A stretch of DNA of 64,000 nt. Source: Boswellia sacra (Eukaryota > Streptophyta > Magnoliopsida > Sapindales > Burseraceae). The stretch covers positions 1-64,000 of the forward strand of contig SNVD02013146.1 in assembly GCA_013180625.2 (NCBI GenBank), read 5' to 3'. Made by a program: the position numbers and the translations under genes. The notes beneath the pieces were generated by a model. It had not been told where the DNA came from, did no database searches, and worked only from the letters and a program-made list of their open reading frames with translations. Below are positions 2,804 to 33,856 of the stretch, in pieces; the first letter of the stretch is position 1; each line of letters starts with the position of its first letter.

Positions 2804-3336
2804 GTCAAATTCCTGTAAAAGGAGTATCCACCTGATAAGCTTGGTTTTGCATCTTTCTTTGTGAGCAAGTACCTCAAAGCTGCATGATCAGAATAAACGG
2901 TTACTTTAGTACCAATCAAATAAGATCGAAACTTTTCTAAAGCAAAAATAACCGCTAGCAACTCTTTCTCAGTGGTAGAATAATTAAGTTGAGCATAATT
3001 TAAAGTCTGAGATGCGTAGTAAATGGCATGTGGAATTTTGCCAATTTGTTGACCCAAAACGGCACCCACAGCGTAGTCACTTGCATCGCACATGATCTCG
3101 AATGGATGATTCCAATTCGAAGATTGGATTACTGGAGCCGAAGTCAAGAGTTCCTTCAGTTTCTCAAACGCCTCTTTGCATTTCTCATCAAAATCAAAGG
3201 CCACGTCATTCTGTAATAATCTGCATAGGGGCAATGCTATCTTCGAGAAATCTTGTGAATCTACGATAAAAACCTGCATGACCAGAAAACGAACGGAATA
3301 TCCCGACACTTGTGGGAGGTGGTTGGTAAGGAACAT
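2767..3336 (-). pseudogene. G1 RNase H domain
   Basis: RNase H degrades the RNA strand of the RNA/DNA hybrid during reverse transcription. The minus-strand frame shows DFSKIALPLCRLLQND, then CDASDYAVGAVLGQ (first catalytic Asp), YYASQTLNYAQ, STTEKELLAVIFALEKFR (catalytic Glu) and [12 protein letters not shown] (catalytic Asp). It follows RT and precedes the integrase zinc finger. The frame runs without internal stops, but the beginning is out of frame with RT (break near 3340-3430) and the end is shifted near 2840. Confidence 0.85.
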
Positions 3337-4146
3337 ATAAGATCTATCTTGGATTTATAAACCCTTACCTAGCAGAAAACATGTCCCAAAAACTTTACCG
3401 ATCTACCATAAAATGACATTTCTCCTAATTCAGAACAAGGTTAGTTTCATAAATCTGTGAAAGATAAGGGTAAAGGTGTCAAGGCATTTATCAAAAGAAT
3501 CACCAAAAACACTAAAGTCATCCATAAATACCTCAATGATGTTCTCAACATAATCAGAGAAAATACTAACCATACACCTTTGGAAAGTGGCAGGGGCATT
3601 ACAAAGACCGAATGGCATACGTCGATAGGCAAATGTACCGAATCGGCATGTGAATGTAGTTTTCTCTTGATCCTCAGGGGCAATGACAATCTGATTATAT
3701 CCTGAATAGCCATCAAGAAAACAATAATGAGAATGACCTGCTAATCTCTCCAGCAGTTGATCAATGAATGGCAAAGGAAAGTGGTCCTTGCGAGTTGCAG
3801 AATTGAGCTTTCGATAATCAATACAAACTCGCCACCCGGGTTGGATACGAGTGGGAACTAGCTCGTTGTTGTCATTTTTAACCACCGTAACACCAGATTT
3901 CTTCGGAACAACTTGGACTGGACTCACCCACTTGCTGTCCGAAATTGGATAAATCACACCCACATCTAACAATTTCAGGATTTCTTTCTTGACAACTTCC
4001 CTCATTGGAGGATTCAACCTCCGCTGTGCTTCTCTAGTGGGCTTGGATCCCTCTTTTAACAAGATGCGGTGCATGCATACGGCTGGACTAATACCTTTGA
4101 TGTCAGCGACTGTCCACCCAATGGCCGTTTTGTGATCTCGGAGCAC
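3337..4146 (-). pseudogene. G1 reverse transcriptase
   Basis: The minus strand encodes the fingers and palm of a Ty3/gypsy RT: a conserved N-terminal segment (IGWTVADIKGISPAVCMHRI), WVSPVQVVPKK, WRVCIDYRKLNSATRKDHFPLP, FLDGYSGYNQI, FRMPFGLCNAP-type motif and the catalytic box FMDDFSVFG. Both aspartates of the xxDD box are present. The main frame holds from 4146 to about 3433; the downstream connection toward RNase H (an NWEKCHFM-type segment, 3337-3430) is frameshifted. Acting with RNase H it would copy the genomic RNA from the tRNA-Asp primer. Confidence 0.88.
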
Positions 4147-4210
4147 GCGGATGAGTTTCTCTTCTTGTATGGTGCAAGACCTTTGCTATTATGACTGGCA
4201 AGTATCTTTC

Positions 4211-5100
4211 TCACCTAGGGAATACATGCTTCAAATGATCTGGAAGAGGCTTAAGCTCCCAAGGTAGTTCTTTCATCACAGAAGGAAGAATGTTCTCATT
4301 AGATAAAGGAAATTCAATGTACGAAACATCATACCTGTTTGTGGTGATAGCTATAGTCTCATCCAAGCTTGCCACAGCTTCCTCCACTTCTTTAGACACT
4401 TGTATCAACTTCCTCGATGCTCTGAAATTTTCTGCCCCAATGTGCTCACTAATGGCTACTTCCAATGCATCCTTGCGAGTTAACTCAAAAAGTTGTTGTG
4501 CCAAAGAATAAAAAACATCAACTGCAAAAACAGAATGCAAGTCACAAGGGTACCTCATTGCCTCAAAAATATTGAAACGAATCACCTCGCCATCAAACTC
4601 CATGGTAAGAGTGCCATCATGAACATCAATCTTGGTTCGGGCAGTTTTCAAGAATGATCTCCCCAAAAGAATCGGTGTTGGATTGGAGATGTCGTCATCC
4701 TCCATTTCTAGAACATAGAAGTCTGCTGGAAAAACCAATTGATTTACCTGCACAAGCAAATCTTCCACAACTCCTTTGGGATACGCATTAGAACGATCAG
4801 CAAGTTGAATTACAATACCAGTTTTCGCAAGGGGTCCAAGATTCAAAGAAGCATAAATAGAATATGGCATGCATTAATAGATGCTCCTAAATCTAACATA
4901 GCTCTTTCAAACTTGGTATTACCAATAGTGCATGGAATGGTGAACGTACCTGGATCTTTGCATTTCGGAGGAATTTTTTTTTGCAATACAGCTGAAACAT
5001 TTTCGCCCACACTTACCTTCTCATTTCCTTTCAACTTCCTCTTGTTGGTGCATAACTCTTTCAGAAATGTTTCGCAGAACGAGGCACTTGCTGGATAGCA
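4211..5100 (-). pseudogene. G1 aspartic protease and linker
   Basis: Retropepsin-like protease that would process the Gag-Pol polyprotein. The active-site segment LDLGASIN is read at about 4900 (DLG replaces the more usual DTG/DSG, as is common in Athila-type elements). After a frame break near 4870 come the flap region (LADRSNAYPKGVVEDLLVQV) and the ILLGRSFL motif. A small frameshift falls inside the catalytic region, just after LDLGASIN. Downstream to 4211 is the variable linker into RT. Confidence 0.78.
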
Positions 5101-6772
5101 TCCAGAAGTGGTAGTTTACCTCGATCTTGCTGAAAAGTTTCCAGGATTTATTGTTATTGTTCCTCCTTCCTTGATTTTGCAAAATTGCTAGGAAAAGGGG
5201 AGTGGAGGATAACATATGAAGGAATATGCGGTTTTAGATTAACTTAGAGATGATGTTGTATTCATGGTGGGAGTGGTGTCATCCCCTTCATCAGTTAGTG
5301 ATTTCTTTGGTGGAATGTCTAATTGCTTTCCACTTCTCAAAGTTACAGCACTAGCATTCTCTCTTGGATTGATCACCGGCTGAGAAGGTAATTTTCCTGA
5401 GCTTTGACTCTCAAATTGCTCATGTTAGTGGCCAATTGTCCCATTTGATTTTCCAGGTTTTGGATACTTGCCCTAGTTTCCTGCTGAAATTGCATTGTGT
5501 AGTGGCAAGTGCTTTAACAATATCCTGGAGAGACATACCTGAATTTTGTGGAGCTGGTTGTGGTGCTGGTTGTGGTTGTGCTTGAAATGGTTGCTGCACC
5601 CTTGGTTGATTGAAACCTGGTGGTCGATTTGGTATGGCATTTGGGGCAATTGGTTGATGATTCCCATATCTTAAATTAGGTTGATCTCTCCATCCAGCAT
5701 TATAAGTATTGGAGAAAGGGTCATACCTTTGCCTTGGTTGTCCTGGAAATCCACCCATGGCATTGGCTTGTTCTGTATCTCCTTCTTGCAAAGGTGGACA
5801 CATGTCGGTTGGATGGTCCATGGCAGAAACATACCCCACATGCATAAGATTTGCTGCATATGTCCTACGAAGCATTTTTTTTACAAAGAGAGGTAGTTCA
5901 CAACGTTGTTGTCAATGTTTGAATACTTACATCATTTTACTATTTTTGGTAGTTGTGGCTCAAATTGACTGGAATTGTTGGGATAGTGCGCTTGCCATGT
6001 CACTAATCAAACGTCTTGCACCGTTCGGTGTTTTATTAACTAGTGCTCCACCACTAGCAGCATCAATGATACTCCTTTCCAGGGGTAGGAGACCCTCATA
6101 GAAATATTGAATTAGGAGTCCATCACTAATTTGGTGGTTTGGACAGCTAGCACATAACCTCTTAAATCTCTCCCAATATTCATGAAGTGATTCTCCATTG
6201 TATTGTCGAATGCCACTAATATCTTTTCTAATATTTGTAACTTTCGAGGCTGGAAAGTATTTCTCCAAAAAGAGTTTACTCATCTCATTCCAAGTGGTAA
6301 TGGTACCTGGTGGTAGTTAGTATAACCAATCTTTTGCCGAATCTGCTAATGAGAATGGGAAAGCTCTCAATTTAATTTGCTCTTCAGAAACGCCGGTTGG
6401 CTTCATACTTGAGCATACCACATGAAATTCTTTGAGGTGTTTGTTCGGATCCTCTCCTGCAAAACCATGAAATGTAGGCAAGAGATGAATCAGTCCAGAT
6501 TTAAGTTCAAAATCTATCTCACAATTGGTGCTTATGCATAGCGGTTGTTGATCAATAATTGGAGCCGCTAACTCCTTAAGAGTCTGATCGTTTTCCATCG
6601 CCATTGCTTCCGATTCAGATTTGATTGAACTGCAAGAAGATGGGAGGGAAGTATGTCGTGCAAGGTCAAATTCTGGAGGTGGAGTTGAAATTGACCGATT
6701 TAGTCTTAAATTCGAGGATTGGAGAAACTCCTTAATTCTCTTAAGTCGCTGATCCGCTTCTCCCTCGGACAT
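5101..6772 (-). pseudogene. G1 gag polyprotein
   Basis: Gag forms the cytoplasmic virus-like particle. The frame opens with ATG at 6772 and carries the retrotransposon gag domain: FHGFAGEDPNKHLKEFHVVC, KLRAFPFSLADSAKDWLY, LFLEKYFPASKV, IRQYNGESLHEYWERFKRLC and FYEGLLPLERSIIDAASGGA. The frame breaks near 6310 and 5960. Around 5860-5810 is a zinc-knuckle region ending HPTDMCP; the two leading cysteines appear only in a neighbouring frame, so a one-base indel seems to break the knuckle. A Pro/Gln-rich stretch follows, then an AVTLRSGKQL motif near 5320, typical of plant gypsy gag C-termini. Confidence 0.82.
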
Positions 6773-6854
6773 AAAAGCCTAAACACAAACAATCAGGAAA
6801 TAACAATCAAGAATCAGTCGTAAAAACAGAATAACAAATTGATTAGAAAATCAA

Positions 6855-6878: not shown

Positions 6879-8305
6879 TGATGCGTTCGAAACTAGCAAG
6901 TATACTAGTCGCACAAGTAATAAAGTGATAAGTAGATATCGTTCCCACGAGGATTGATTCTAATTGAATTCGTTATTTTCCAGCAACGATAAACTAAACA
7001 GGGAGGGGTTTTGTTGAATGATTAACTAAATGAAATAAGAATGCAAATTAAGAATAACAAAACAGAAGTTAATTTGAATGAAAGATCAATGAGAGACACT
7101 TGGTTAAGGGTTCTTTCTCTGCCACAAGATATGAATTTGTGAATTAACATAGAATTGTAATCCAATTACAGCATTGAAGTTATCAACCGTAGATAACAAC
7201 AAGCTCTGTTATCCCAATCTTTCCTTACTTTGTTGTTAAATAAAACAAGCTCTTTATTTAATCTCTATCCATTAAACAACCTAGAACAAGCTCTCTAAGT
7301 TTAATTCAATGGAAGCATTACGATGAGAAAGATAGGTTGATCTAAGCAATAATCACACAAGTTCAGATTATTTAACCTAGGTTGTATTTTCCAATTGCAA
7401 TCTCTGATCACAATTTTGCTACTAATGATTGGAAATTCATGACAATTACGGATCAAGATTTCTAATCTAGCAATAGACAACAACAGATTATATTCAGTTG
7501 GCCATTCCAAATACAATCAGTAAGCAATCATAAGCATTAGATATGGGAAAATACAAGCAACTTCAATTAGAGAATTGGATAACAATTTCTTACACAATCA
7601 ACTCACAAAATCCATATCAAGGGCTTTGAAATCACCCTCAACCAATTCAAATTTAGTTACACATATTCAATCAGAATAACAAATACAATACAGAGAAATT
7701 CCAGAATTGAAAAGGAAAGAAAGAACTTAGCAAATTCTTTGAAAATCTTCTTTGTAGATGAATCTTCTTGGAATTGTAGTTCCTCCTCTTTCAAAATCTT
7801 CTTTCTCCTTCAAGAACTCCAAGGGATGAGAGAAATCCAGAAATGCAGCCTCCTCCCACGTTTTCCCCTCTTCAAGTTATGAAAATAAAACCCTAAAATG
7901 TGTTTAAATACTCTGCTACAGTAACTTGCTACAGTGCCCGTATTTAATAACATGCTACAGTGATATATGGAATTACAAATATACACTTCTCATACCATTT
8001 TTATCACAACTTTCGGTACAATACATAAATTCGTGAACCGTAAATTTCTCCAGAAAATAGACTTCGAGAGCTTTTCAATGGTATATAGCATGTTATCCGG
8101 TTAATTGTATATCGATACAATCAACTCCAAGAAATTGGTTGACTAGCAGAGGTGAAAATGAAGGGTTTTACTCTAATTTTGTGTAAGTTCCTCCAAAACT
8201 CCTACAAACATCAAAAACCACACAAAAACATAAAAATACTAAGGAATATAGCAAAGAAACATGGACGAATTGATATGAAAATGATATATAAATAGACACT
8301 TATCA
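6879..8305 (-). mobile_element. G1 5' LTR (1427 bp)
   Basis: Read on the minus strand it begins TGATAAGTGTC (8305) and ends CGAACGCATCA (6879), so it has TG...CA termini and is followed by the primer-binding site. A closely related but rearranged copy is at 27530-30683. No coding content. To the right the sequence changes abruptly to the Ogre-like integrase remnant. Confidence 0.85.
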
Positions 8306-15296: not shown

Positions 15297-18200
15297 TGAT
15301 GAACACTTAAATACGTGTATTTAGTAAGAGATTAATTCATCATATTGCACTAATAGTTTCATTAAATTTTTTAACTTAAGCATATTTGTAGCATTTGCAT
15401 CTTTTAAATTAGCTTCATCTTAATTTCAATTTTGTTGCAGGTTTGGTAAAATGAGCATAACTTTCTATATATAGATCAAAATAGTGCAAATCTTTATTTT
15501 TTTTGAAAATTTGAATAAATTTTCTAAAAGATTGTTTTTCACAAGCATCATGAAATTCGAGCTTTTAGTGGACCAAAAATGGGCTTAAAGCGAACCTATC
15601 TGTAGTTTCAGCCTAGTCTAACCATGCCTTCATATTTTGACTATATCTATTGATATACGTATCCAAATCATATGAATCAAGATGTTCTAGAAAGCTGAGA
15701 AAAATATCTACAACTTTCATGAAGGCATGTAATCAAAATTTTAAATATTTCGATGCTGAAATTAGTGGTCAAAGTTGTTCACATGATGATCGAAATTGTC
15801 AACAAAATATTTTACAATTGTCCCTTATGATTTGACAAGTTTGCCCCCGAATGTTTCTATAAATAGAAGTGCATTGTGATCTATTAGGGCATCTTGGCTT
15901 TTGGCTGAGATCTTTTACCATTGTGTCTTCTCTCCTTTGTTTTGTTTTCTTAATATTATTAACAAATCATTTTCTTCTTAAAATTTATTTTATTTCTTGC
16001 ATAATGTCTTGCTAAATGCTCTCTTGTTAAGGTGAAAGGGTGAAATCCTTGATGTTAGAATAAGGATTTTCTAATCCTTTGATTTTTGCTTAAAAATCAT
16101 AATCTAGAGTTGTTTATTTTATGTGTTTTATATTTATTTTCTTAATCAATCTTGACACCACTCGTAAAGTGGAGGTCTTGTTTAGATAATCCTTGGCACA
16201 TCAAATGCTTGGATCCTTTTCTACACTGTGAATAGGGCTTTCTTCCTGCCAGAGAATTTGTGACCATGACACTGTGTTAAAGTCTCTTTTTGAGACTTAA
16301 GGGAACACAAATGAGCCACGGGCATGTCTGGAGAAAGGAGTCGCCACCCAATTATGCAATTGGGAATGAATGAGGTCAATCCGATCCCTCGCTTCGGGAC
16401 CTAAACTACCCTCCTCTCTTCAGAGATAGGTTAGGGATCCACTTGGGACATACCAAATAAGAATGTCTCATGTTGTTACTTAGTCTGCTTAAATGGTTAA
16501 TTTTATGCACACATTCTCAATTTTATCTTCATTAAGCATGTTAAGTGATTGTTCAATTAAAACAGTTGTATATTCATACAAAGAAAGAGAGAGGAGAATA
16601 GATTACATTTTCGTCATACATGGGGGAAGGGGAAAGGATTACAACATTGCTATTCAACAATAATATAATGTTCCATACATTCACATACATTCGAAACTCA
16701 ATAGATGATGAATTCCTCACCACCATATGTGAGTCTATTCAACGTCTATTCAAGTTTCTTACATATCCATAACTTAGGAATACATTCTTAGTGATGGTCC
16801 CTCACCATCAATATGAGTCCACCATCACTTCATGGCATCATACAGTTACAATTCATAATATACAAACATTCGTACATTATAAATCAAACAAAGCCATAAT
16901 CTAATGTCATGGCATTCTAGCCTAGATTTTGATAAATTCTATCGTGGCAGTTTTACCTATTGCTATTCTAGCATAACTCATATCAAGTATCATCATGGCA
17001 TTTCTAGCCTAAAACATAGCATTCATGACATATTCTAGCTAATTCATGGCATTCATGGCATATTCTTAGCCTAATTCAAACATTCAACAATCATAGCATT
17101 CAAGGGCAAAATGGTAATTCAACCTATTCGATGCTATTTCCTAGCACTCATCAAAGCAAATAAGTTTTCCTATCATGATTCTAATCATGTGCTCTTAAGC
17201 ATGATTCTAAACATGTCCTCCTAATCATGGTTCTAAGCATTCGTAGAGAAAGTAAATTCCTAAGCATGATTCTAAAAAAGGAAAGTTTGCGGACTTACCT
17301 TGACATCCTTATCCATCTTACATAACAAATTGGGTTAGCTCAATTTATAATAACTCTAGACATGTTCCTAAGCATAAAAACAATCCTAAACACACTTCTT
17401 CTAAGCAAGAAAAATAAAAGAAAGTAGGAGGGGGGAGAGAATTCTACTCTTAAGACGTACCCTTTCCGAGTTTAGAGAAATAGAATGCCTAAAAAAATTA
17501 TACCAAAAAGACTTCTCGAGTTCTCGAGTGTGTCTTCAAGAGGGAGAAAGATGATTGTATTTGACAATTGGTGTGAATTGCAAAGTGGAGGGAGTAGGGT
17601 TTTTATAGGAGAGGGGTGCAAATGAAAAAGGAAGTTTTCTAAGCAAATTTCCATAAATAAACCAACAAGGGTCGAGCGGCCATCTTCAGACAGTCGGGTG
17701 GCCATCTGATGGATGCCCGACCATTGGCTAACAGTCGAGTGGCTATCAGATGGTCGGGCTATTATCTTGGATACCCGGGCGGCAGTCTGATGGTCGGTCG
17801 GCCAATTTCCTTTTGGCCTCTTCCTTTTTTATCATCGTTCGATGTAGTCCTTTCAAACCTTTGCTTCTTCAATTGGACATAACTTTTGGAATTCAACTCC
17901 GATTTGTAATCCATAAATTTCTATGAAAACTAGACATCTGTAGCTTTGTAATAGTATATGACTCATCATCAGATTCCTCTTGGATTAATTTATGTGATTT
18001 TTCAAATTCATGTGTCAATTTTCCAAAATCTTCACTAACTTCTTTTCACCCTTCTCTTCTTGACTCTCAAGGGCATTTTGATCATTTTCTTTGCTCAACA
18101 TTCATATTCATTTCATTCTTGAGCCTCAAAAATTTAGTGTCTACATAGATGTCATATGGTTCTTTCTTACTGACACAAGTCTAGTTAAGAACCTTGATTT

Positions 18201-18760
18201 GTTGTAGATATATGGTGATTAGCATATTGGATGCTTGAACCCATTTACAAGAAGTGGTATAAATATTGGAAATGAAATCCATGTAACTAAAATGGGTCTA
18301 AAAGAAATACCTTCTGATTGAAACCTACTTGACGTGTGGATTCTAATTGAGTTATAATTGAGTTGTTTATCCTTATTTGATATATCAAGGGCGGATCCCC
18401 TAACCTTATCTTTCATTGTTGTTGTGTTAATTTCTCTTACTTGTGTATTTCATTTATTCTCGTTTATTACTTATGAACTTACTATTTCATTTGTTATAGT
18501 AGGTTTTACTACCTATTTCCATGGATGGTTTTACCACCCTTTATTTTTTTTTAAATTTGAATAGTCGGTTGTACTGCCTACCATCTTTACTTTTATTTGT
18601 CAATATTATCTTGTTATTTATTTCAATTATTCTTATCATATTTGCTTACCCTTTAGCTTGTATCGCGAAGTTCCTTTCCTTGTGGATCGACCCTGGTTTT
18701 GTTGGGTTTATTACTTTGACATTCATTTACTTGAGAGATAATCATTTTTTGGACGTGTCA
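15297..18760 (+). mobile_element. LTR A of element E (plus strand), split by an Ogre-type solo LTR
   Basis: Begins TGATGAACACTTAAATA at 15297 and ends GACGTGTCA at 18760, followed by a PBS (gacgccgttgcca). Without the nested 1919-bp insertion it is about 1545 bp, the same as LTR C, and it aligns with the reverse complement of LTR C along its length. The inserted LTR splits it between ttttctacac and tagatgtcatatgg; the two halves rejoin in alignment with LTR C. Hydrophobic short frames near 18358-18841 are LTR sequence, not genes. Confidence 0.8.
16227..18145 (-). mobile_element. Ogre-type solo LTR inserted in LTR A (1919 bp)
   Basis: On the minus strand it starts TGTAGACACTAAATTTTTGAGG (18145) and ends CCTATTCACA (16227), matching the O1 3' LTR at both ends and in the body. 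There is no internal region, so it is a solo LTR formed by LTR-LTR recombination. Flanking pentamers tacac and tagat match at 3 of 5 positions, so the target duplication is doubtful or mutated. A GC-rich cluster of short inverted and direct GGCCATC/GGTCGGGC units lies at 17660-17815 in otherwise AT-rich sequence. The 16000-17500 stretch contains many copies of atggcattctagcc-type short repeats. Confidence 0.78.
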
Positions 18761-18972
18761 AGTTTTGACGCCGTTGCCAAGGAAGGTAAAATTTGGCATG
18801 CAAAATTTGTGCTTATCTTTTTCTTTCATTTTCTCTTTTAAAATTGCATGAAAATTTGGTCATGCACATCTAGTGGTAGACTTGTGAGGAAATAAGATCT
18901 AAAATGAGAAACAGGAATACTTCCAATTTTGCTTGTCAAATTTTACCTTCCCCAGCAATGACGCTAAAAACT
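18761..18972. other. Head-to-head leaders with two primer-binding sites
   Basis: From 18761 there is a plus-strand PBS (gacgccgttgcca) and about 130 bp of gypsy leader. Near 18892 this switches to the reverse complement of the same leader (about 75 bp) ending in a second, inverted PBS (tggcaatgacgc-like complement near 18950-18966). Both leaders align with the leader of LTR C at 32150-32312. This is the pivot of a large inverted repeat formed by LTR A and LTR B. Confidence 0.75.
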
Positions 18973-19875
18973 TGACACATCTAAAAAATGATTACCTCTC
19001 AAATATAGAAATGTCGAAGTAATAAACTCGGTAAGACCAGTGTCGATCCACAGGGAAGGAGACTTAGTAGTATAGATTAATGAGTAATCAAATATTATAA
19101 GAATAATTAAAATAAATAACAAGATAATATTAACAAATAAAAGTAAAGATGGTAGGCAATACAACCGACATTTCCAATGTAAAACAAAAATAAAAGGTGG
19201 TAAAACCATCTATAGAAATACGTGGTAAAACTTACTATAGCAAATGAAATAGCAAGTTCATGGTAAAACTTACTATAGCCAATATGCTCTAATGGGTCAC
19301 AATGCACCTTTATATATAGATACATTCAGGGGCAAACTTGTCAAATTACAAAGGGACAATTGTAAAATATCTTGTTGACAATTTAGATCATTATGTGCAC
19401 CGATTTTGACCATCGATTTTGGCACTGAAATATTTAGAATTTTGATCACATGTCTTCACAAAAGTTATAGATATTTTTCCCAACTTTCTAAAACCTTGAT
19501 TCATATAATTTGGATATGTATATCAAGAGATATGGTCAAAATACGGAGGCATGATCAGATTGGACGAAAACTATAGATGGGTTCACTTCAAGCCTATTTT
19601 TGGTCTACTAAAAGCCTGAATTTCATGATACTTAAGAAATATAAACTTGTAGAAAATTTAATTAGCTTTCCAAAAAATTAAGATTTGCACCATTCCAATC
19701 TATAAATAGAAAGTTGTGCCAATTTTACCGAACCTGCAACAAACCTGTAATTAAGATGAATCTAATTCAAAAGATGCAAAAACTTCAAATATGCTTAAGT
19801 TGAGAAATTTAATGACACTATTAGTGTAATATGATAAATTAAGCTCTTATTAAACATCACATTTAATGCTCATCA
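18973..19875 (-). mobile_element. LTR B, 3' LTR of element E, internally deleted (903 bp)
   Basis: On the minus strand it begins TGATGAGCATTAAATG at 19875 directly after a polypurine tract and ends ATGTGTCAAG at 18973. Compared with LTR C it lacks about 640 bp in the middle (junction near 19280). It is in the position and orientation of E's 3' LTR, but it is followed by a PBS, which a normal 3' LTR is not. Confidence 0.8.
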
Positions 19876-19890: not shown

Positions 19891-20603
19891 TTATTGCTAG
19901 TCTCTAACAATTAAAGCGTTATTATTCGGTAGTGATTTGTAGAATTTTACATCCAAGGTGGCCATTATTGTACTCTCCTTGATTCTATTCAAATAAACAA
20001 ACTCTGAACCGATTTTTTTTCTTTTTTTAAAAAGACTCATGTACCTTTCAGTCAAGATATTGACAAATATTCTTTTTGTGCTCAGTCGACACATGAGTAT
20101 GGGACTTTTTAGAAAGAAGCCATATCGGTTCTAATATTTGTCAAGGCTAACATCTTTAGGCAGGGGGCATTCATTCATCGTTATTTTTTTCATTTATTAT
20201 TATGATGATTATTATTATTATTTGAAACAATGCATCTTTAACCCATGTAGCGAGCCATAGGCTAATGATTTCCAGACCAATTGGTCTTAGGGCATTAGGT
20301 GTTAAGACACCCCTATGAGCTTAACGACGCGGATTGTGGATGCTTTATTTTTATTTAGAAAATTTTGGATAGTGCAATGTTGAATCCCCTTAAGCTTTCT
20401 CCTTAATCCATGTAACGAGCTTTAGGCCAATAGCTCCCAAACCAGTTGGTCTTAGGGTATTAGGTGTTAAGGCACCCCTTAGGCTTAATTGCTCAAATTA
20501 ACAAGATTATGAGACCAAACTTCTCCACAATTGCTTATTTGTTTATTTCATTTTTTTTCTTTCTCTTTTCTTTCTCTCTCTCTCTCTCTTTTTTTTTTGC
20601 TTT
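19891..20603 (-). other. E 3' untranslated region with an 85-bp direct repeat pair
   Basis: Two copies of a segment with core aggtgttaagacacccct lie at about 20243-20330 and 20408-20492. Each includes a short palindrome or near-palindrome around the accaattggtcttaggg block. A pyrimidine microsatellite (ct runs) is at 20555-20600. No coding content. Confidence 0.6.
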
Positions 20604-21462
20604 CCTCTTCCTTTTATTATTATTTTAAACAAAACAAAAGAACTCAAATATTGCAACATTTTATTTTGCAACCCACAATCATGCATCAAGTTATGTGTCT
20701 GAAGAAAGGTTCATGAATACTTGCTTACTAAGTGCATAAGCAAACAGTTTATTAAATTATAAAGTTATGAGAGTTCATAGATTAGAATAATTCAAAGTGA
20801 AGTGAATAAGACAATCTCGTTATAAAATTCAAAAATCAAAACTAAATAATAATAAGTTAGCTAAAATGAGTCTCAAGAGTGCAAAATCAAAATAACAAGT
20901 CAGTTAGAATGGGTTTCAAGACTTCAAAATTACCCTCTTTACTTTGCCATTCCTGATCCATAATGCGTCTCAAAAGGAATTGAACTCCTTATACTGCCAC
21001 TCTAAAACCAATTACTTTCTTTTTTTTAACTTTCCCCTTTCTTTTGTTGTTATCCTAAACAAAATAAAAGAACTCAAATATTGTAACATTTCATTTTGCA
21101 ACCCACAATCATGCATCAAGGTATGTGTGTGTGTAAAGAAAAATTCATGAATACTTGTTTAATGAGTACATGAGCAAACGGTTTATTAAATGATAAAGTT
21201 ATGAGAGTTCATAGATTTGGATAATTCAAAGTGAAGCAAATAAGATAGCCTCATCATAAAATTCAAAAATCAAAACTAAATAATGGTAAGTTAGCTAAAA
21301 TGAGTCTCAAGAGTGCAAAATCAAAATCAAAACAACAAGTCAGTTGTAATGGGTTTCAAGAGATAAAAATTGCCCTCTTTAGTTTGCCATTCCTGATCTA
21401 TAATAAGTATCAAGAGGAATTGAACACCTTACATTACAACTTTAAAACTAATTAGTTACTCT
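20604..21462. repeat. Tandem duplication, about 430-bp unit, two copies
   Basis: Copy 1 is about 20604-21030 and copy 2 about 21031-21462; for example caaaagaactcaaatattg recurs 430 bp apart (20628 and 21058). The copies share the cataatcatgcatcaag-type block, the gttatgagagttcatag block and the tgagtctcaagagtgcaaaa block. They lie in the 3' untranslated region of E and have diverged by scattered substitutions. Confidence 0.85.
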
Positions 21463-21787
21463 TTTTTTTTTGGCAAAAAGGATAAGTAAAACACACTTAT
21501 GTCTACTATCCTTCCCACCTGTAACCCCCCCTCGCTTCTCCCTCCCCAACCAAATGAAACATTGTCCTCATTGTTTAAACGTACAGAGATAAAGTATATG
21601 AGACATCACCTGAAGCTTTAGTTATTCAAAAGAGACGACCTAAAAGACACATATAATAAAATGCTACAAATAGTATAAAAGACAATAAAAATTACAAACG
21701 GAGCGTCAGATCTAATTTGCACTTTTTGTTGTGTCCCCTTGACCAATTAATTTGAGTTATTGCTGGGTTAGGTTCATGCTCAACTAC
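21463..21787 (-). other. E 3' region with the conserved caatgaggacaatg block
   Basis: On the minus strand 21580-21556 reads gtttaaacaatgaggacaatg, a block typical of the stretch upstream of the polypurine tract in plant Athila-like gypsy elements. The same block occurs on the plus strand near 29402-29425 inside the rearranged LTR. No coding content. Confidence 0.5.
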
Positions 21788-22341
21788 TTATAATTTGTCA
21801 AGTAATTCATTAGTAGTAGTGGCAGAAACAAAGATCTGTTGTGCCGAATGTGGGATAAAATTATTTTCTATGGCTTCATTAACAAAACGTGGCAAAGGAT
21901 CAAAGATATTTTTAACATTCAACAAACCTATGTGTTTCTGATGGAGATTCAGTTGGGTCTAAAAGGCAATTTGAAAAATTTCTTTGAAAATACTAAAGCC
22001 ACCTGGTAAAGCAATGAAGGCATCTAAATTGATAAGCATGTATGTCATGCGTTCATGCATAGATGAGACCTGTAACTTCTGTCCAACTGTTTTTTCAATG
22101 ATGCTTTCTAAAACCAAAGCTCTACGAATAACACTTAAAACTTGACTGCCTCCTAAGAGTGCAGTTGTTGACACACAATGCATTAACCCGAGGCTACCTC
22201 CCTCATAAACCACATGAATCTTTCTTTCAGCTAATAGCCTACCAAGATAATTTGCTACTTCTACAAACTCTTCACTTTTTCCAGGTTGAGATCCACAAAA
22301 TACACATATCTTTTAGATTCGATGTTTTGAGGTTTCTCCAT
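21788..22341 (-). pseudogene. Captured LOG-family pseudogene, element-sense copy, nearly full length
   Basis: LOG enzymes are cytosolic phosphoribohydrolases that release active cytokinin bases from their riboside monophosphates. The minus strand has ATG at 22341 (MEKPQNIESKR), a one-base frameshift near 22310, then ICVFCGSQPGKSEEF, LAERKIHVVYEGGSLGLM, LLGGSQVLSVI, SSMHERMTYML and DAFIALPGGFSIFKEIFQ. It ends with QLNLHQKHIGLLNV and a C-terminus stopping at 21788. About 184 codons compare with about 210-230 in plants. Plant LOG genes have several introns; none is seen here, so the copy is cDNA-derived. The PGGxGTxxE catalytic motif is changed to PGGFSIFKE, and a TAG replaces the expected tryptophan after it. 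It lies in the 3' region of E in the sense orientation. Confidence 0.82.
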
Positions 22342-22530
22342 GTCTACGCAACTCTCTAACTATATGTGTGAAGTGAAGAATAAGAGATGTCATATTTACG
22401 GAGTGCAAGTATTCTAATGATGACATCTATATAGGTAGCTCAGCTGTTTGTTGAAAAAGTTTGACAATAAAACATAGAAATTCAAAAAATGACAGAAATA
22501 AGACAACATAAATGCATAAGTCAATCGAAA

Positions 22531-23020
22531 GATAGAGATATAAGTTAAAAAATGACGGTTACAAGAGATAAAAATTCAAAAATTATAGCACACATTCATA
22601 TATACAGGTAGTTGTGAGAGAGGTAGCCTCGGGTTAATGCGTTGTGTGTTAACAACTTCACTTTTAGGAGGCAGTCAAGTTTTAAGTGTTATTCCTAGAG
22701 TTTTGGTTGTAGAAAGCATCAATGAAAAAACAATTGGACAGGAGTTACAGGTCTCATCTATGCATGAACGCATGACATACATGCTTATCAATTTAGATGT
22801 CTTTATTGCTTTACTAGGTGGCTTTAGTATTTTCGAAGAAATTTTTCAAATTGCCTTTTAGGCCCAACTGAATCTCCATCAGAAACACATAGGTTTGTTG
22901 AATGTTAAAAATATCTTTGATCATTTGCCACATAGATAGAGATATAAGTTAAAAAATGATAGTTATAAGACATAAAAATTAAAAAATTGTAGCACACATG
23001 CATATATATAGGAGTTGTGA
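22531..23020. repeat. 85-bp direct repeat flanking the inverted LOG copy
   Basis: 22531-22615 and 22935-23020 share gatagagatataagttaaaa and the downstream tagcacacat block up to gttgtga. They bracket the plus-strand LOG fragment exactly. In the second copy the sequence continues into the E 3' ORF region as in G1, so the second copy is the original context and the LOG fragment plus one repeat copy were added. Confidence 0.8.
22619..22932 (+). pseudogene. Inverted second copy of the captured LOG fragment
   Basis: 314 bp matching the reverse complement of 21889-22200, with 16 differences by my count (about 95% identity). It covers LGLMRCVLTT, GGSQVLSVIPRVL, SSMHERMTYMLINLDVFIAL, GGFSIFEEIFQ and the start of the C-terminal part, in plus orientation, antisense to E. 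It shares with the other copy the TAG at the tryptophan position and the altered GFSIF motif, so both were dead before the duplication. It keeps a proline (VIPR) that the other copy lost, while the other keeps PGG where this has LGG. Together the copies form arms around a spacer of about 418 bp. Confidence 0.82.
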
Positions 23021-23650
23021 TAATGGCTTACATCTTCATCTGGTTTTACGTCCAAAAACAACTTAAACACCTTCTACGAGCTGGAGATATGCTTTCCATC
23101 GAGTTTTCTTATAAACTGATAAACATGGTCGTTTTGAGTTAGATTGCTGAGGTTGTAATGTGCATGCTCCTCTCAAAATTGTGTCCATAATTTCAAAATT
23201 TCACACTGCAAAATTCCACAAGAATGCGTCTCAAGAGTCAATTAGATATTGTCCAAAAACTCTCTACTCAGTCCATTCTCGATGAATTGTAGCTTATCTT
23301 CTTGATTGTTAGACAAAAATTCTAAGGAGCGGTAACGCTGGTTGCAAGGCCATCTTACACATTTGTGACAAACTTATAACCTGTTCTCTCTTTGCTTTTT
23401 GGCGTAAGAGTTCTGGCATGTGATACAAAAACATCTGGAAATTCACAAGAGAATCAAACCTTTGCTTCAATTAACCATCTTCAATTAGCAAGAATACCCT
23501 CGTGTATCAACATTCTTAGTCTTTCCGCTCGAGCTTTGTAAATTTTAAGCAAATCATTTTGAGGAAGAGAGGAAAAATGTGTGTGCACATTTGAGAGAAT
23601 GGTATCCATTTGAAGAAAATGAGAGAAAAAAAGAAACTGAATGTAAGGTG
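23021..23650 (-). pseudogene. E 3' ORF, homologue of the G1 3' ORF
   Basis: On the minus strand the order is SSLPQNDLLKIYKAR, RWLIEAKV, a basic and cysteine-containing block (CHKCVRWPCNQ), then LTLETHSCG, LWTQF, NLTQND and QFIRKLDGK. Each has a counterpart in G1 385-1004. Stops and frameshifts interrupt it, and the third cysteine of the cluster is followed by arginine-tyrosine instead of the final cysteine. Unknown function; conservation between two elements whose LTRs differ suggests it was a working gene of the lineage. Confidence 0.6.
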
Positions 23651-23853: not shown

Positions 23854-24890
23854 CTACTCCATGAGAGAAAACATTTTTAACAATGAAAGGTCCAATCTAA
23901 CGAGATCGAAGTTTGCTAGAAAACAAATGCAATCTTGAATCATACAAAAGAACTTTTTGTGAAGGTTCAAAAGATTTTCTAACATTAAATTTGTCATAGA
24001 AAACCTTCTTTTTTTCTTTATAGATTTTAGAATTTTCATAAGCCTCATTCCTGATTTCTTCAAGTTCACTTACTTGGAGTTTACATAACTTTCAAGCATC
24101 ATCCAAATTTGTGTTAAATGTTTTAATGGCCTAATAAGCTTTATGCTTAATTTCCATAAGCAAGTGATAAGGTTTTCCAAAAACTAATCTATAAGGAGAC
24201 ATACCTAGTGATGTTTTGAAAGCAGTTTGGTAGGCTCAAAGTGCATCATTAAGTGTAGAAACTTTATCTCCCTATTAGTCTAATTTAACTTGTCCACTTG
24301 TTTGCGGGTGATAAGGTGTAGAAACTTTATTGGTTATTTCATATTTCTTCATTAGAGTCTTAAATGGTTTCTTACAAAAATGTGTACCCCATCACTAATA
24401 ATGGCTCAAGGAATTCCAAATCTGTCCAAAATATTCTCTTTCAAGAATTTGATCATTGTTTTGTGATCATTGTTTTCACATGGAATTGCCTTGACCCATT
24501 TTGAAACATTAGTCTGCTGCAACAAGAATGTACACAAAACCAAATGATGGTGGGAAAGGTCCTATGAAATCAATACCCTAACAGTAAAAAATTTCAACAA
24601 CAAGAATGAGGTTCAAAGGCATCATGTTTTGTTTTGAAATAGATCCCAAATTTTGACAATTTTTACAAGTTTTGCAGAGTGCATGTGCATTTTTAAATAA
24701 GGTGGGCCAATAAAATCTACATTACAAGATTTTAGCAGCTATTTTTCAGATGAAAAATGTCCTCCACATGCTTTGGAATGACAAAAATTAATGACACTAC
24801 TTAGCTCATTGTCGAGTATGCATGTTTTAATTATCTGGACGGGACAATATTTAAACAGATATGGATCATCCCAATAAAAATTTTTTACCT
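23854..24890 (-). pseudogene. E integrase
   Basis: Heavily decayed. Minus-strand pieces show the HHCC finger region (ACGGHFS-like near 24770, CK.C..CQN near 24670), core fragments around 24600-24140 with a [17 protein letters not shown] start, and the C-terminal segment near 24069-23854 ([24 protein letters not shown] reading, with GPF). Several frame changes and stops. Position after RNase H and before the 3' ORF confirms gypsy order. Confidence 0.68.
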
Positions 24891-24893
24891 CGT

Positions 24894-25502
24894 TCAGTTC
24901 CTTTTATCTTGATCACTCCAATGATGTGGCATTTCTTCTCTTACAAGAAAATTTAGAATGTTAGCAAACCAAGGTACTATAGTAATGGAGAATAAAAATT
25001 CATCAGGAAAAGAGTAATTGATAGGTGAAGTTTCAATTGATGTCTCTGTCATTAATCTTGACAGATGATCTGCAACAACATTTTTGACTCCTTTCTTATC
25101 CTTTATTGTGATGTTGAATTCTTGGAGTAATAAGATCCATCGTATCAATATAGGTTTTGTATCCTGTTTAGACATTAAATATCTCACAGCTGCATGGTCA
25201 GTGTAAACAATAGTTGGAGAACCAATTAAATAAAATAAAAATTTACCCAATGCAAATACTGCTACAAGTAGTTCTTTTTCAATTGTAGTGTAATTCATTT
25301 GTTCATCATTTAAAGTTCTACTTGCATAATATATCATATAAGACTTACCTTCTCTTCTTTGTCCTAAGACAACATCAACAACATAATCGCTTGCATAACA
25401 CATTAATTGAAAAGGTAAGGACCAATCGGGAGATTGCATAATTGGAGTAGTTGTTAAAAGTCCAATTAACTTATCAAAGCATTTTGATATTCTTGAGTCC
25501 AT
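24894..25502 (-). pseudogene. E RNase H domain
   Basis: One of the longest open stretches of E. It reads CFDKLIGLLTTTPIMQSPDW, CYASDYVVDVVLGQR (catalytic Asp kept), YYASRTLNDEQMNYTTIEKE (catalytic Glu kept), IVYTDHAAVRYLM (catalytic Asp kept) and VVADHLSRL. It follows RT on the same strand and resembles the G1 domain throughout. Confidence 0.8.
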
Positions 25503-26604
25503 TCAAAATAAGTATCTTTTATTAAGAGGTTTAGATATAACACTGAAATTTCTTATGAACTTCCTATAAAATCCAGCATGCCCTAAGAATGAACGAACCT
25601 CCTTGACTGTTTTTGTTAGAGGCAAATGGGAAATCTATTCCATTTTGCTTTATCCACTTCAATTCCCTTAGAAGACACCACGACCTAAGACAATCCCTAA
25701 GGTAACCAAATAATGACATTCTTGTCAATTTAAAATATGACCTTTTTCTTCACACCTTTTTAGAACTTTTTTAAGTTTTCAAGACAATTATCAAAAGAAT
25801 TTTCAAAGACAGTTAAATCATCCATGAAAACTTCCAAACAATGCTCAACCATGTCACAAAAAATGCTCAACATGCATCTTTGAAAAGTAGCTGGAGCATT
25901 ACAAAGTCCAAAAGGCATCTTTCTAAATGTAAAAGTGCCAAAGGAGCATGTGAATGTGATCTTTTCTTGGTCTTCAAGTGCAATGAGAATTTGGTAATAG
26001 CCTGAGTAGCAATCAGGAAAGCAGTAGTAGGAATGCCCTGCTACTCTTTCTAAAATTTGATCAAGGAACTGTAAGGTAAAATGGTCTTTCTAGTGACAGC
26101 ATTTAATTTTCTATAGTCAATACACATCCTCTAACTAGATGAGACTCGAGTTGGTAATGATTCACCTTTTTCATTTTTGACTATTGTAATGCTAGATTTC
26201 TTTGGTACTACTTGTGTAGGGCTTACCCACTTACTATCCGAAATGGGGTAGATAATTCCCACATCAAGTAGTTTAAGAACTTTACCTCTAATAACCTCTT
26301 TCATATGAGGATTTAATCTCCTTTGAGGTTATCATGATGTTTTGGCATTTTCTTCTAAATGTATTCTATGTGTACAAATCAAAGGGTTAATGCCTTTTAT
26401 ATCTTTTAAAGTCCACCCAATTGCATTTTTATGCCTTTTAAGCACTTCTATCAACTTACCTTGTTGCTCGCTTATGAGGGATGAAGAAATTACTGGCAGA
26501 TACGTCTGATTCTCCCCAAGATATGCATATTTTAGTCCTTTAAGTAAAGGCTTTAGTTTTAACTTGGGAACATCCTCTTCCTTGCTTTCATTCATTTGTC
26601 CCAA
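25503..26604 (-). pseudogene. E reverse transcriptase
   Basis: The N-terminal part is open at 26604-26332 (KNAIGWTLKDIKGINPLICT) and then shifts frame. Further pieces include WVSPTQVVPKK-like sequence near 26235, FPLPF/ILDQ near 26060, YCFPDCYSGY near 26010 and the catalytic box VFMDDLTVF near 25825 with both aspartates. Stops and frameshifts separate the pieces. Confidence 0.75.
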
Positions 26605-27529
26605 TTCTTCGAATCATGATTTTCTATCACCTGTGCACAATCTAGTAAAGAAAATATATTAGAAAGATCAGGCTCTAGTTGCATACTCGATTTTAATAAA
26701 TTGACTAAACATGTTTCCAAAAGGTCAGAAAAACTCCCTTTTTGGATGTGGTCTTCCACAATAGTTTCAATCATATTAGCCTCATTCATTTCATCATCTT
26801 CTTCATGCAGTTGTTTACACGTATTAAAAATGTTAAGTTCCAATATCATGTTCCCGAATGATAGCTTCATGATTCCATCCCTGCAGTTAATCAAAGCATT
26901 AAAGGTAGCTAAAAATGAACGCCCTAAAATGACAGGAATTGAATTACATACTTTCACTGGTTGTGTATCCAAAACGATAAAATCAATTAGGTAAATAAAT
27001 TTATCGATTTGAACTAACACGTCTTTTACTACTTCTCTTGACACTTTAATTGATCTATCAGTAAGCAAAAGAGTCACAAAAGTCAGCTTTAACTCACCTA
27101 GATTGAGTTTCTGAAAAATCAAGTATGGAAGGAAATTTAAACTAGCACCAAGATCAAGTAAAGCTTGTTCAAATTTATGATCTCTAATAATACATGAAAC
27201 TGTAGGATAACTTGGATCCTTATATTTCACTGTATTATTGTTTTAAAGAATAACACTTACTTATTTGGCTAGAAAGGCCTTCTTTTTCACATTCAATTTT
27301 CTTTTTATAGTACACAAATCTTTCAAAAATTTTACATTTAAAGATACCTGTTTAATCACATCTATCAAGGGAATGTTGACCATCACCTATTTGAAAATTT
27401 CAAAAATTTTAGAATTGTGGTTTAGCTTCTTTTAAGTGGCTAATGCTTGAGGAAATGGAGGCACAGATGGGGATTTGGTTTCTTCCTCACTAAGTGTTGG
27501 TTTGGTAGCCTTTTCCTAACCTTTAGAGA
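26592..27529 (-). pseudogene. E aspartic protease
   Basis: Open from 27230 to 26592. It contains the active-site segment ALLDLGASLNFLPY (DLG as in G1), LTDRSIKVSREVVKDVLVQ, VLDTQPV and IPVILGRSFLATFNALI, all standard for Athila-type proteases. Between 27251 and 27529 is the end of gag and linker, with no clear motif. At 27530 the sequence is interrupted by the rearranged Athila LTR and resumes at 30684. Confidence 0.8.
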
Positions 27530-28658
27530 TGATGCGTTCGAAATTAGCAAGTATACTAGTCACACAAGTAATAAAGTGATGAGTAAGATATCGTTCCCAT
27601 GAGGATTGATTCTAATTGAATTTGTTATTTTTCAGCAACAATAAACTAAATAAGGGGGGTTTTGTTGAATGATTAACTAAATGAACTAAGAATGCAAATG
27701 AAGAATAACAAAATAGAAAGTTAATTTGAGTGAAAAATCAATGAGAGAAATCTGGTTAAGGAATCATTCTCTACCACAAGATATGGATTTGCGAATTAAT
27801 CGTAGAATTGTCATCCAATTACAGCATTGAAGTTATCAACCGTAGATAACAACAAGCTCTGTTATCCCAATCTTTCCTTACTTTGTTGTTAAATACAACA
27901 AGCTCTTTATTTAATCTCTATCCATTAAACAACCTAGAACAAGCTCTCTAAGTTTAATTCAATGGAAGCATTACGATAAGAAAGATAGGTTGATTTAAGC
28001 AATAATCACACAGGTTCGGATTATTTAACCTAGTTTGTATTTTCTAATTGCAATCTCTGATCACAATTTTACTACTAATGATTCGAAATTCATGACAATT
28101 ACGGATCAAGATTTCTAATCTAGCAATAGACAACAACCAGATTATATTCAGTTGACCACCCCAAATACAATCAGCAAGCAATCATAAGCATTAGATATGG
28201 GAAAATACAAGCAACTTCAATTAGAGAATTGGATAACAACTTCTTACACAATCAACTCACAGAAACCATATCAAGGGCTTTGAAATCACCCTCAACCAAT
28301 TCAGATTCAGTTACACATGTTCAAAAACGTCATAAATACAATAAAATACATAAAAATTCCAGAAGATGAAAGGGAAATGATAAACTTAGCAAATATGATG
28401 AAATCTCTTAGGATTTGTAGTTCTTCCTCTTTCCAAGCCTTCAATCTCCTTCAAGAACTCTAAGAGATGAGAGAAATCCAAAGATGCAGCCTCCTCCACG
28501 TTCTCCCCTCTTCCAGTTCTTCAAATAAAACCCTAAAATGTGTTTATATACTTTGCTACAGTAACCTGCTACAGTGTCCTGTATTATACATGCTACAGTT
28601 ATTTGTGGAATTACATTTCTACACTTCTCACACTATTTTGATTATAACTTTCGGTACA

Positions 28659-32140: not shown

Positions 32141-32312
32141 TCCTCACAAGTCTACCACTAGATGTGTGTGACCAAATTTTCATGCAACTTTAAAAGAGAA
32201 AAGGAAAGAAAAAGATGAGCACACAACCAAAAAAAAATCTAAAATGAGAAAAATGAATACTTACAATTTTGCATTACAAATTTTATCTTCCTCGGCAACG
32301 ACGCCAAAAACT
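32141..32312 (-). other. E leader and primer-binding site
   Basis: The primer site at 32289-32306 reads TGGCGTCGTTGCCGAGGA on the minus strand, the tRNA-Asp type with two changes from G1. The leader matches both leaders at 18761-18972. Confidence 0.75.
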
Positions 32313-33856
32313 TGACACGTCCAAAAAAGGATTATCTCCCAAGTAGAGGAGTGTTGAAGTAATAAATCCAAGAAGACCGGAGTCGATCCACAGGAAGGGG
32401 ACTTAGCAGTACAAACTATAGGGTAAACAAATATGATAAGAATAATTCAAATAAATAACAAGATAATATTAACAAATAAAAGTAAAGATTGCAGATGGTA
32501 AAACTGACCATTCAAATGTAAAACAAAAATAAAAGGTGGTAAAAGCATCCATGGAAATAGGTGGTAAAACCTACTATAGCAAATGAAATAGCAAATTCAT
32601 AAGTAATAAATGAGAATAAATGAAATACACAAGTAAGAGAAATTAACACGATAATAATGAAAGCTAAGGTTAGGGGATCCACCCCTGATATATTAAATAA
32701 GGATAAACAACTCAATTATAACTCAACTAGAATCCACACATCAAGGAGGTTCCAATTAGAAGGTATGTCTTTTAGGCCCATTTTAGTTATATGAATTATA
32801 TTTGTTTTATTATCAATATTTATACTACTTCTTGTAAATGGGTTCAAACATCTAATGTGGCAATCACCATATGTCTACAACAAATCAAGGTTCATAACTA
32901 GACTTGTGTTGATAAGAAAGAACCATACGATGTTTGGAAAGGATCTAAGCATTTGATGTGCCAAGTATTATCTACAATAGATCAAGACCTCCACTTTACG
33001 AGTGGTGTCAAGATTGATTAAGAAAATAAATATAAAACATATAAAATAAACCCAAGATTATGATTTTTAAGCACATATCAAAGGGTTAGAAAATCTTTAT
33101 CCTTATATCAAGGATTTTACAGTTTTACCTTAGCAAGAAAAAATTTAGCAAGACATTATGCAAGAAAGGAAATAAATTGCAAGAAGAAAATGATTTATAA
33201 TGTTAAGAAAACAAAACAAGAGAGGAGACACAATGTTAAGAGATCCCAGCCAAGAGCCAAGATTCCCTAATGGGTCACAATGCACCTCTATTTATAGATA
33301 TATTCAAGGGCAAACTTGTCAAATTACGAAGGGACAATTGTAAAATATCTTGATGACAATTTGGATCATCATGTGGAGAAACTTTGAACATCAATTTTGA
33401 CACCAAAATATGTAGAATTTTGATCACATATCTTCACAAAACTTATAGATATTTTTCTCAGATTTCTAGAACATTTTGATTCATACAATTTGGTTTTGTA
33501 TATCAAGAGATATGGTTAGAATACAGAGGCATGGTCAGGTAGGGTCGAAACTACATATGGGTTCATTTCAAGCCCATTTTTCGTCCACTAAAAGACTGAA
33601 TTTCATGATGCTTCTGAAATGCAATCTTGTAGAAAATTTAATCAGCTTTTCGAAAAATCAAAATTTACACCATTCTGATCTATAAAAGAATGTTATGCCC
33701 ATTTCATCAAACCTACAAGAAAACTAAAATTAAGATGAAGCCAATTCAAAATATGCAAAGACTACAAATATGCTTAGGTTGAGGAATTTAATGACATTAT
33801 TAGTGCAATATAATGAATCAAGCTCTTATTAAACATACATATTTAAGTGTTTATCA
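32313..33856 (-). mobile_element. LTR C, 5' LTR of element E (1544 bp)
   Basis: On the minus strand it begins TGATAAACACTTAAATATG (33856) and ends GGACGTGTCA (32313), then the PBS. Uninterrupted, so it is the reference for LTRs A and B. It contains a hydrophobic spurious frame at 32512-32715 that also appears in LTR A; this is not a gene. Confidence 0.85.

Follow-up and report, generated by a model that had tools for sequence, protein, structure and literature searches.

The window analysed here, 64,000 nucleotides from Boswellia sacra (contig SNVD02013146.1, positions 1 to 64,000), contains an Athila-like Ty3/gypsy element, an old copy that is dead and is referred to below as E. Placement with Athila rests on the tRNA-Asp-type primer binding site (PBS), the long LTR and the sense ORFs towards the 3' end, which we take to be traits of that lineage. 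E and the inverted repeat within it consist of the following features, given in element order.

32312..33856, minus strand: 5' LTR of E (3' end approximate), a direct match of about 84% to 18890-19875; it starts TGATAAACAC
32294..32306, minus strand: PBS of E, one mismatch to TGGCGCCGTTGCC, which is exact in three complete copies of the family
26592..27242, minus strand: protease region of E (PF08284 RVP_2, E 6e-6)
25760..26089, minus strand: reverse transcriptase fragment of E (PF00078 RVT_1, E 1.8e-14)
24894..25502, minus strand: RNase H region of E (PF17917, E 1e-28)
24137..24583, minus strand: integrase region of E (tblastn with the other integrase of the window, 1785-2273; 44%, E 3.5e-37)
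23176..23609, minus strand: broken ORF of viral nucleic-acid-binding type, called CRP (tblastn with the intact CRP of locus L013; about 70%, E 1e-53)
22934..23012, no strand: direct repeat copy b, adjoining arm 2 (repeat search of the window)
22612..22931, plus strand: arm 2, a piece of LOG repeated in inverted orientation (repeat search; locus L008 has no arm 2 at the same place)
22530..22608, no strand: direct repeat copy a, adjoining arm 2 (single copy in L008)
21889..22208, minus strand: arm 1, internal to LOG (repeat search of the window)
21692..22341 (approximate, from alignment), minus strand: full-length but broken LOG frame, arm 1 included (82% to the LOG of L008)
21695..21715 (placed by hand), minus strand: C-terminal LDLTLRL tail (LxLxL), still readable in the translation of the window LOG
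18890..19875, minus strand: 3' LTR of E (direct repeat match with the 5' LTR), continuing through a PBS and leader up to an inverted LTR

Protease, reverse transcriptase, RNase H and integrase follow each other on the minus strand in the order expected for Ty3/gypsy elements, and no gag match was found in the window copy of E. The LTR pair is present, with a K2P distance of 0.17-0.18, as is the PBS with its single mismatch, which we assign to tRNA-Asp for the whole family; the 3' end is disturbed. The first-pass annotation had recognized a LOG-like sequence lying in sense within a gypsy-type element, and both points hold: the ORF at 21959-22312 (minus strand) matches PF03641 (E 1e-10), and LOG has the orientation of the element, its frame sharing the minus strand with the remnants of protease, reverse transcriptase, RNase H and integrase. 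The frame is dead in this copy: comparison with L008 over 205 codons shows two stops, the reading shifts by one base close to its start, and the PGGxGTxxE motif is lost.

The surroundings of E are crowded with other repeats. Between LOG and the 3' LTR lies a tandem duplication of about 430 nt (20590-21467, 84-88% identical), and head-to-head LTRs occupy 15297-19875, the inverted LTR-PBS-leader being met at about 18890. A direct repeat of 1.15 kb (89%) pairs 6879-8020 with 27530-28658, the second copy lying inside E, and may be a small element of its own. At the left edge of the window there is a second gypsy element on the minus strand (360-908 and 1785-6778) with gag-, protease-, RT- and integrase-type ORFs; it carries a viral-type ORF, its integrase is up to 95% identical to those of LOG-bearing loci, and its LOG, if there, would fall outside the window. 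Copia-type ORFs in opposing orientations fill 40296-61000, where arrays of 65-nt and 192-nt units give rise to large inverted repeats.

The two LOG-derived arms do lie in opposite orientation, as first noticed, although their dimensions are slightly revised, from about 314 nt, 95% and a spacer of 418 nt to 320 nt apiece (21889-22208 and 22612-22931), 94% complementarity with 18 mismatches, and a spacer of 403 nt. The pair is far above chance (BLAST, E 3e-141), and arm 2 is flanked on either side by a copy of a 79-nt direct repeat, the two copies being 90% identical. The long hairpin expected of a transcript is borne out by a predicted structure of -571 kcal/mol for RNA through the repeat region, a raw energy computed without a shuffle control at this size of more than 1000 nt. 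The inverted duplication found no support, on the other hand, as a feature of the element family. When the 551-nt junction region was compared with the whole genome, the window alone matched the full query among the 50 matches listed (best 40 of 2810 first-look candidates scored). The remaining listed matches cover only the arm; identity is 94% for arm 1 of the window itself and 86-89% for the others. Some of them have the 79-nt block about 400 nt off on the other strand, which is the ancestral layout. Likewise, none of the 55 arm-matching loci among the 74 fetched, some of which are the same copy, matched the arm on both strands.

The ancestral layout can be read from L008 (contig C6751), which aligns to the window on both flanks of LOG: it has one 79-nt block and no arm 2, where the window has block, inverted arm and block in that order. 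At 38 positions the two arms are alike and L008 is different, and the same in-frame TAG stop is present in both arms, so the piece was copied after the LOG frame had decayed. Furthermore, 18 differences in 320 nt between the arms against a distance of 0.17-0.18 between the LTRs of E make the duplication younger than the insertion. A later accident of repair or replication, involving two template switches after decay of the frame, would have placed an inverted 320-nt piece next to LOG and duplicated the 79-nt flank along with it, and two such switches would yield the layout of block, arm and block. We regard it as very probable that the inverted repeat is private to the window copy, late and functionless. 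A working small-RNA hairpin, whether aimed at host LOG genes or, as would be likelier, at sister elements, seems to us highly improbable. It would be long and near-perfect if transcribed, and sister elements could be its targets, each of the 30 L008-type loci sharing 4-21 exact 21-mers with the arms; but the repeat occurs in one copy only among the listed junction matches and the 55 arm loci, the piece already held a stop when it was copied, and among the 44 other loci 42 have no 21-mer in common with the arms, the remaining two being the L008 copy itself.

Unlike the repeat, LOG belongs to the family as a whole. It is a standing gene of a high-copy Ty3/gypsy family of Athila-like type, placed in sense orientation after pol and before the 3' LTR. 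In the genome of 638.6 Mb (7431 contigs), a PF03641 search returned at least 150 matches, each stop-free over 131 positions, these being the best of 10198 first-look candidates and thus biased to intact copies. Whether other copies of the family carry LOG had been left by the first-pass annotation to such a search; they do, and its picture of a LOG capture by this one copy gives way to a gene that is old, under selection and common to the family as a whole; the duplication copied an already dead piece of it. A processed pseudogene captured by this copy alone, suggested by the intronless frame and a T-run, was likewise dropped once the genome search showed a family-wide gene.

Three complete insertions (C1783, C6917 and C6751) give the anatomy in full. 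Their LTR pairs, of about 1.4-1.5 kb, are 95.2, 95.8 and 98.1% identical, respectively, an exact PBS lies a few bases past the 5' LTR, and a sense LOG stands ahead of the 3' LTR. All three have TG...CA LTR ends, a G-rich polypurine tract and a perfect 5-bp target duplication (AGCAT, CCATC and GAGAG, respectively), with ends, tract and duplications read by eye. A gag match was obtained for C6751 only; no reverse transcriptase was found among the 10 ORFs scanned in the three copies and no integrase by tblastn, so they look non-autonomous.

Preceding LOG, between it and the gag/pol part, sits the CRP ORF. In all three complete copies CRP matches PF05515 Viral_NABP (E 1.7e-8, 7e-10 and 4e-10; 35.2-40.5 bits against a cut-off of 23) and also PF01623 Carla_C4. 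Among 49 aligned relatives, 44 match Viral_NABP at E <= 0.001 and 42 match Carla_C4, and 227 database proteins match CRP. The window has at least two broken or partial copies, at 23609-23176 in E and at 908-360 in the left-edge element. The structure model of CRP is poor (pLDDT 65), and a fold search with it gave no match at E <= 0.001. Short of that threshold, and with the same poor model, the first rank was the 15 kDa protein from Cherry mottle leaf virus, a record which we take to be of a plant-virus protein, ranks 2 and 3 bear the name RNA silencing suppressor and rank 7 that of nucleic-acid binding protein, all from plant viruses.

The association of CRP with LOG was followed from both sides, in sets that may count some copies twice and for which the numbers of first-look candidates are loose. 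With the DNA upstream of LOG, mostly the CRP ORF, as query (best 40 of 1996 first-look candidates scored, 97-100% identical), at least part of LOG was found at 28 of 30 loci, with an unbroken frame in 7, one of them the query's own copy; 10 of the 30 had an integrase match in the same neighbourhood. With the L008 LOG as query (best 40 of 2459 first-look candidates scored, 98-100% identical), a full stop-free LOG frame was present at 19 of 30 loci and CRP at 25, unbroken in 9. The L008-type and L003-type sets were each chosen by likeness to one copy. CRP had no full frame in 16 of the 25 L008-type loci that have it, and 11 of these 16 stand beside a full LOG; thus the CRP-LOG pair need not work in cis. 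The L008-type subfamily (L045-L074) looks like a very recent burst, with LOG 98-100% identical in all 40 scored and an LTR K of 0.016 in one copy. In one subfamily, tandem units of about 60-67 nt lie between the viral-type ORF and LOG (L007:2242-2435 and L003:950-1144).

Both genes bear the mark of purifying selection. Comparison of nine full-length LOG copies with L008 gave dN/dS of 0.162-0.205 between subfamilies; these are Nei-Gojobori counts rather than a codon model, and the nine comparisons are not independent, as all involve L008. The corresponding dS of 1.13-1.45 comes from a set in which frame-truncated ORFs were counted and one copy entered double, as L003 and as L015, whereas the dN/dS counts for both genes refer to full-length, non-duplicate copies. 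CRP gave 0.113-0.174 in 19 comparisons; of 40 loci examined, the 20 whose frame is uninterrupted were used, with the duplicates L008, L009, L011 and L015 left out. Within subfamilies, LOG dN/dS was 0.21 (36 pairs) and 0.37 (17 copies), values biased low because only intact frames were taken. The dead LOG of the window gave 0.42 against L008, higher than the intact comparisons. We are all but certain of the element anatomy and of purifying selection on LOG and CRP.

These values bear directly on the idea that LOG is a passive passenger, retrocopied once by chance, spread along with a recent burst and without a role in the element. Recent bursts do occur, given that 40 of 40 scored copies are 98-100% identical to L008, and many copies have decayed. 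A passenger would sit badly, however, with dN/dS of 0.16-0.21 at dS of about 1.1-1.45 between subfamilies, with catalytic residues and a tail that are retained, and with a single clade of proteins presumably from species of several orders. We find the passenger hard to credit and read LOG as a gene that the family has kept.

The intact copies keep the catalytic motif and, by structure prediction, the LOG fold. The AlphaFold model of an intact element LOG has a pLDDT of 87, and the closest solved structure to it is AtLOG3 (2a33; TM 0.93-0.95 by target). Over 45 sequences E120 and E121 are invariant and R98 is nearly so; we take these three to be the catalytic residues of LOG. PGGxGTxxE is present in most proteins of both types, 107 of the 120 element-type ones and 108 of the 120 host-type ones, the former set being the best database relatives of the element LOG and the latter LOG1/3-type database proteins, not those of this genome. 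Thus, intact element copies show each mark by which the LOG class, the cytokinin riboside 5'-monophosphate phosphoribohydrolases, is recognized here (PF03641, PGGxGTxxE, the Arg/Glu pair and, in the model, the LOG fold).

What sets the element-type proteins apart is the C terminus, a basic patch followed by LxLxL, whose last 16 residues are of low confidence in the model. LxLxL occurs within the last 14 residues in 95 of 120 element-type proteins versus 0 of 120 host-type proteins, and still in 42 of 53 after thinning of the element-type set; elsewhere in the element-type proteins it was seen in 11 of 23238 stretches of 14 residues. In all 95 tailed database proteins the end of the motif coincides with that of the protein, and 88 of them have at least three K/R in the preceding patch. 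The tail is missing in the other 25 of 120, some of which retain the basic patch alone. Among the copies of this genome, LxLxL is terminal or two residues before the end in 10 of 10 full-length copies and in 17 of 18 L008-type frames, and L003 and L031 have M rather than L as the last residue.

The EAR motif is defined as LxLxL or DLNxxP in the abstracts of two papers (PMC6283911, PMC9956375), and by sequence the tail is EAR-like. That it binds TOPLESS is, on this likeness, a tentative proposal, to which we give well under even chances. Slightly better placed, though we still would not bet on it, is the alternative that LOG is selected but its C-terminal LxLxLxL serves peroxisomal-type targeting, oligomer contact or stability instead of co-repressor binding. 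Such a role would suit a motif fixed at the very last residue of 95 tailed proteins, a position that EAR does not need, and a tail that forms a low-confidence, probably flexible stretch of the model. It would leave aside that the inner leucines are conserved too and are preceded by a basic patch, that L003 and L031 end in M, and that the tail fits the EAR definition LxLxL as printed in the abstract of PMC9956375.

We built a tree from 57 rows of element type, 5 of them of this genome, together with 13 host rows and a single bacterial one. One branch (SH-aLRT 94) sets the element-type rows apart, and another (95) the host LOGs, AtLOG8 included. The 120 element-type proteins had been thinned to 52 by length and identity, and the host rows are 12 of the 120 host-type proteins plus AtLOG8. 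On these sequences the tree fits a single old LOG capture, with host LOGs sampled narrowly. The relatives come from Xanthoceras, Reevesia, Diplodiscus, Paulownia, Populus, Rehmannia and Melia, among others, so that the clade presumably spans Malvales, Sapindales, Lamiales and Malpighiales. That these database proteins are element-borne is deduced from their multiplicity per species. For one LOG (P0006) and one CRP (P0241) the longest contig is 8723 bases in each case, from which we infer that the two lie on one contig, a possible element link in another genome. The tailed LOGs could instead be a host gene clade that elements captured repeatedly, the tail then being a host trait. Gene-like names on some entries, such as Populus LOGL10 (P0061), and a host sample confined to the LOG1/3 group speak for this; but many element-type proteins occur per species (28 of the 120 rows are from Reevesia pubescens), and both lineages in the B. 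sacra genome are intronless frames within LTR elements. We consider a host clade rather unlikely and keep to an element-borne one.

Taken together, these results are probably best explained by an old two-gene element family carrying LOG and CRP, with the inverted repeat of the window as a late accident. Downstream of pol and before the 3' LTR, the family has two additional genes in sense orientation, CRP first and then a full LOG. LOG would make free cytokinin in cells that transcribe the element, and this would favour division and a meristem-like state of those cells, through which new copies would pass into the germ line. Judging from residues and predicted fold, it is rather likely that the element LOG acts as a cytokinin-activating enzyme. 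CRP would bind RNA and blunt silencing; that it acts against silencing is a reading of its viral similarity which we put forward with reserve, at somewhat less than even odds. More speculatively, the LOG tail would recruit TOPLESS-type co-repressors. The combination of all these roles, a two-gene host-manipulation cassette made of a virus-type silencing suppressor and a bifunctional LOG that activates cytokinin and recruits TOPLESS via its tail, is on balance unlikely. If true, it would provide dividing, silencing-poor cells suited to transposition and would be a plant counterpart of growth-gene-carrying retroviruses.

The inverted repeat itself is of little weight. If LOG is active, however, the many element copies are potential sources of growth hormone signal, and they are also a potential source of false 'LOG gene' annotations. 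The function of extra ORFs in plant LTR retrotransposons is raised as a question in PMC6317226. With purifying selection, an enzyme with a measurable reaction and a testable binding motif, this question is here open to direct assay.

LOG in elements of this type is known. Two Athila-like elements with similarity to LOGL4 were reportedly described by Steinbauerova in 2011. According to section 12 of PMC9289625, which cites Steinbauerova 2011, a YgdH/LOG domain occurs in Ty3/gypsy consensuses of two Citrus species and, under a looser filter, of Populus. The likeness to the family described here is thus a LOG-family domain in eudicot LTR retrotransposons; the difference is that this section gives the presence of the domain alone, with copy integrity, selection, LxLxL tail and viral-type partner unmentioned there. 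In a search of the literature that covered main texts only and few subscription papers, the tail, the CRP-LOG pair and selection on both genes were not met, nor did a search by title bring up anything coupling carlavirus proteins to LTR elements, and neither Viral_NABP nor Carla_C4 is named in the papers listed; the three features are apparently new with respect to the literature searched.

Env-like, Grande, RIRE2 and Retand elements (PMC7264820) likewise have an extra ORF between pol and the 3' LTR that is kept in most copies, and LOG and CRP share the sense orientation of the env-like class there. The extra genes of that set are transmembrane env-like or antisense ORFs, whereas the present family has a hormone enzyme of host type and a nucleic-acid-binding protein of virus type. 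CRP resembles the NABPs of betaflexiviruses and allexiviruses (PF05515, PF01623) in having a basic patch and then a short cysteine array, but it is retrotransposon-encoded and its structure match is not significant. Insect retrotransposons with a viral SF1 helicase (PMC6338049) are also retroelements with a virus-derived domain, for which weak silencing suppression is reported; they differ in kingdom, in domain and in having the domain as part of a polyprotein instead of as a separate 3' ORF. Finally, the element LOG shares with plant LONELY GUY proteins (AtLOG3, 2a33; AtLOG8, 1ydh) the fold, as modelled, the PGGxGTxxE motif and the Arg/Glu pair, and is distinguished from them by its intronless frame, its separate clade and a basic-LxLxL tail that none of the 120 LOG1/3-type host proteins has.
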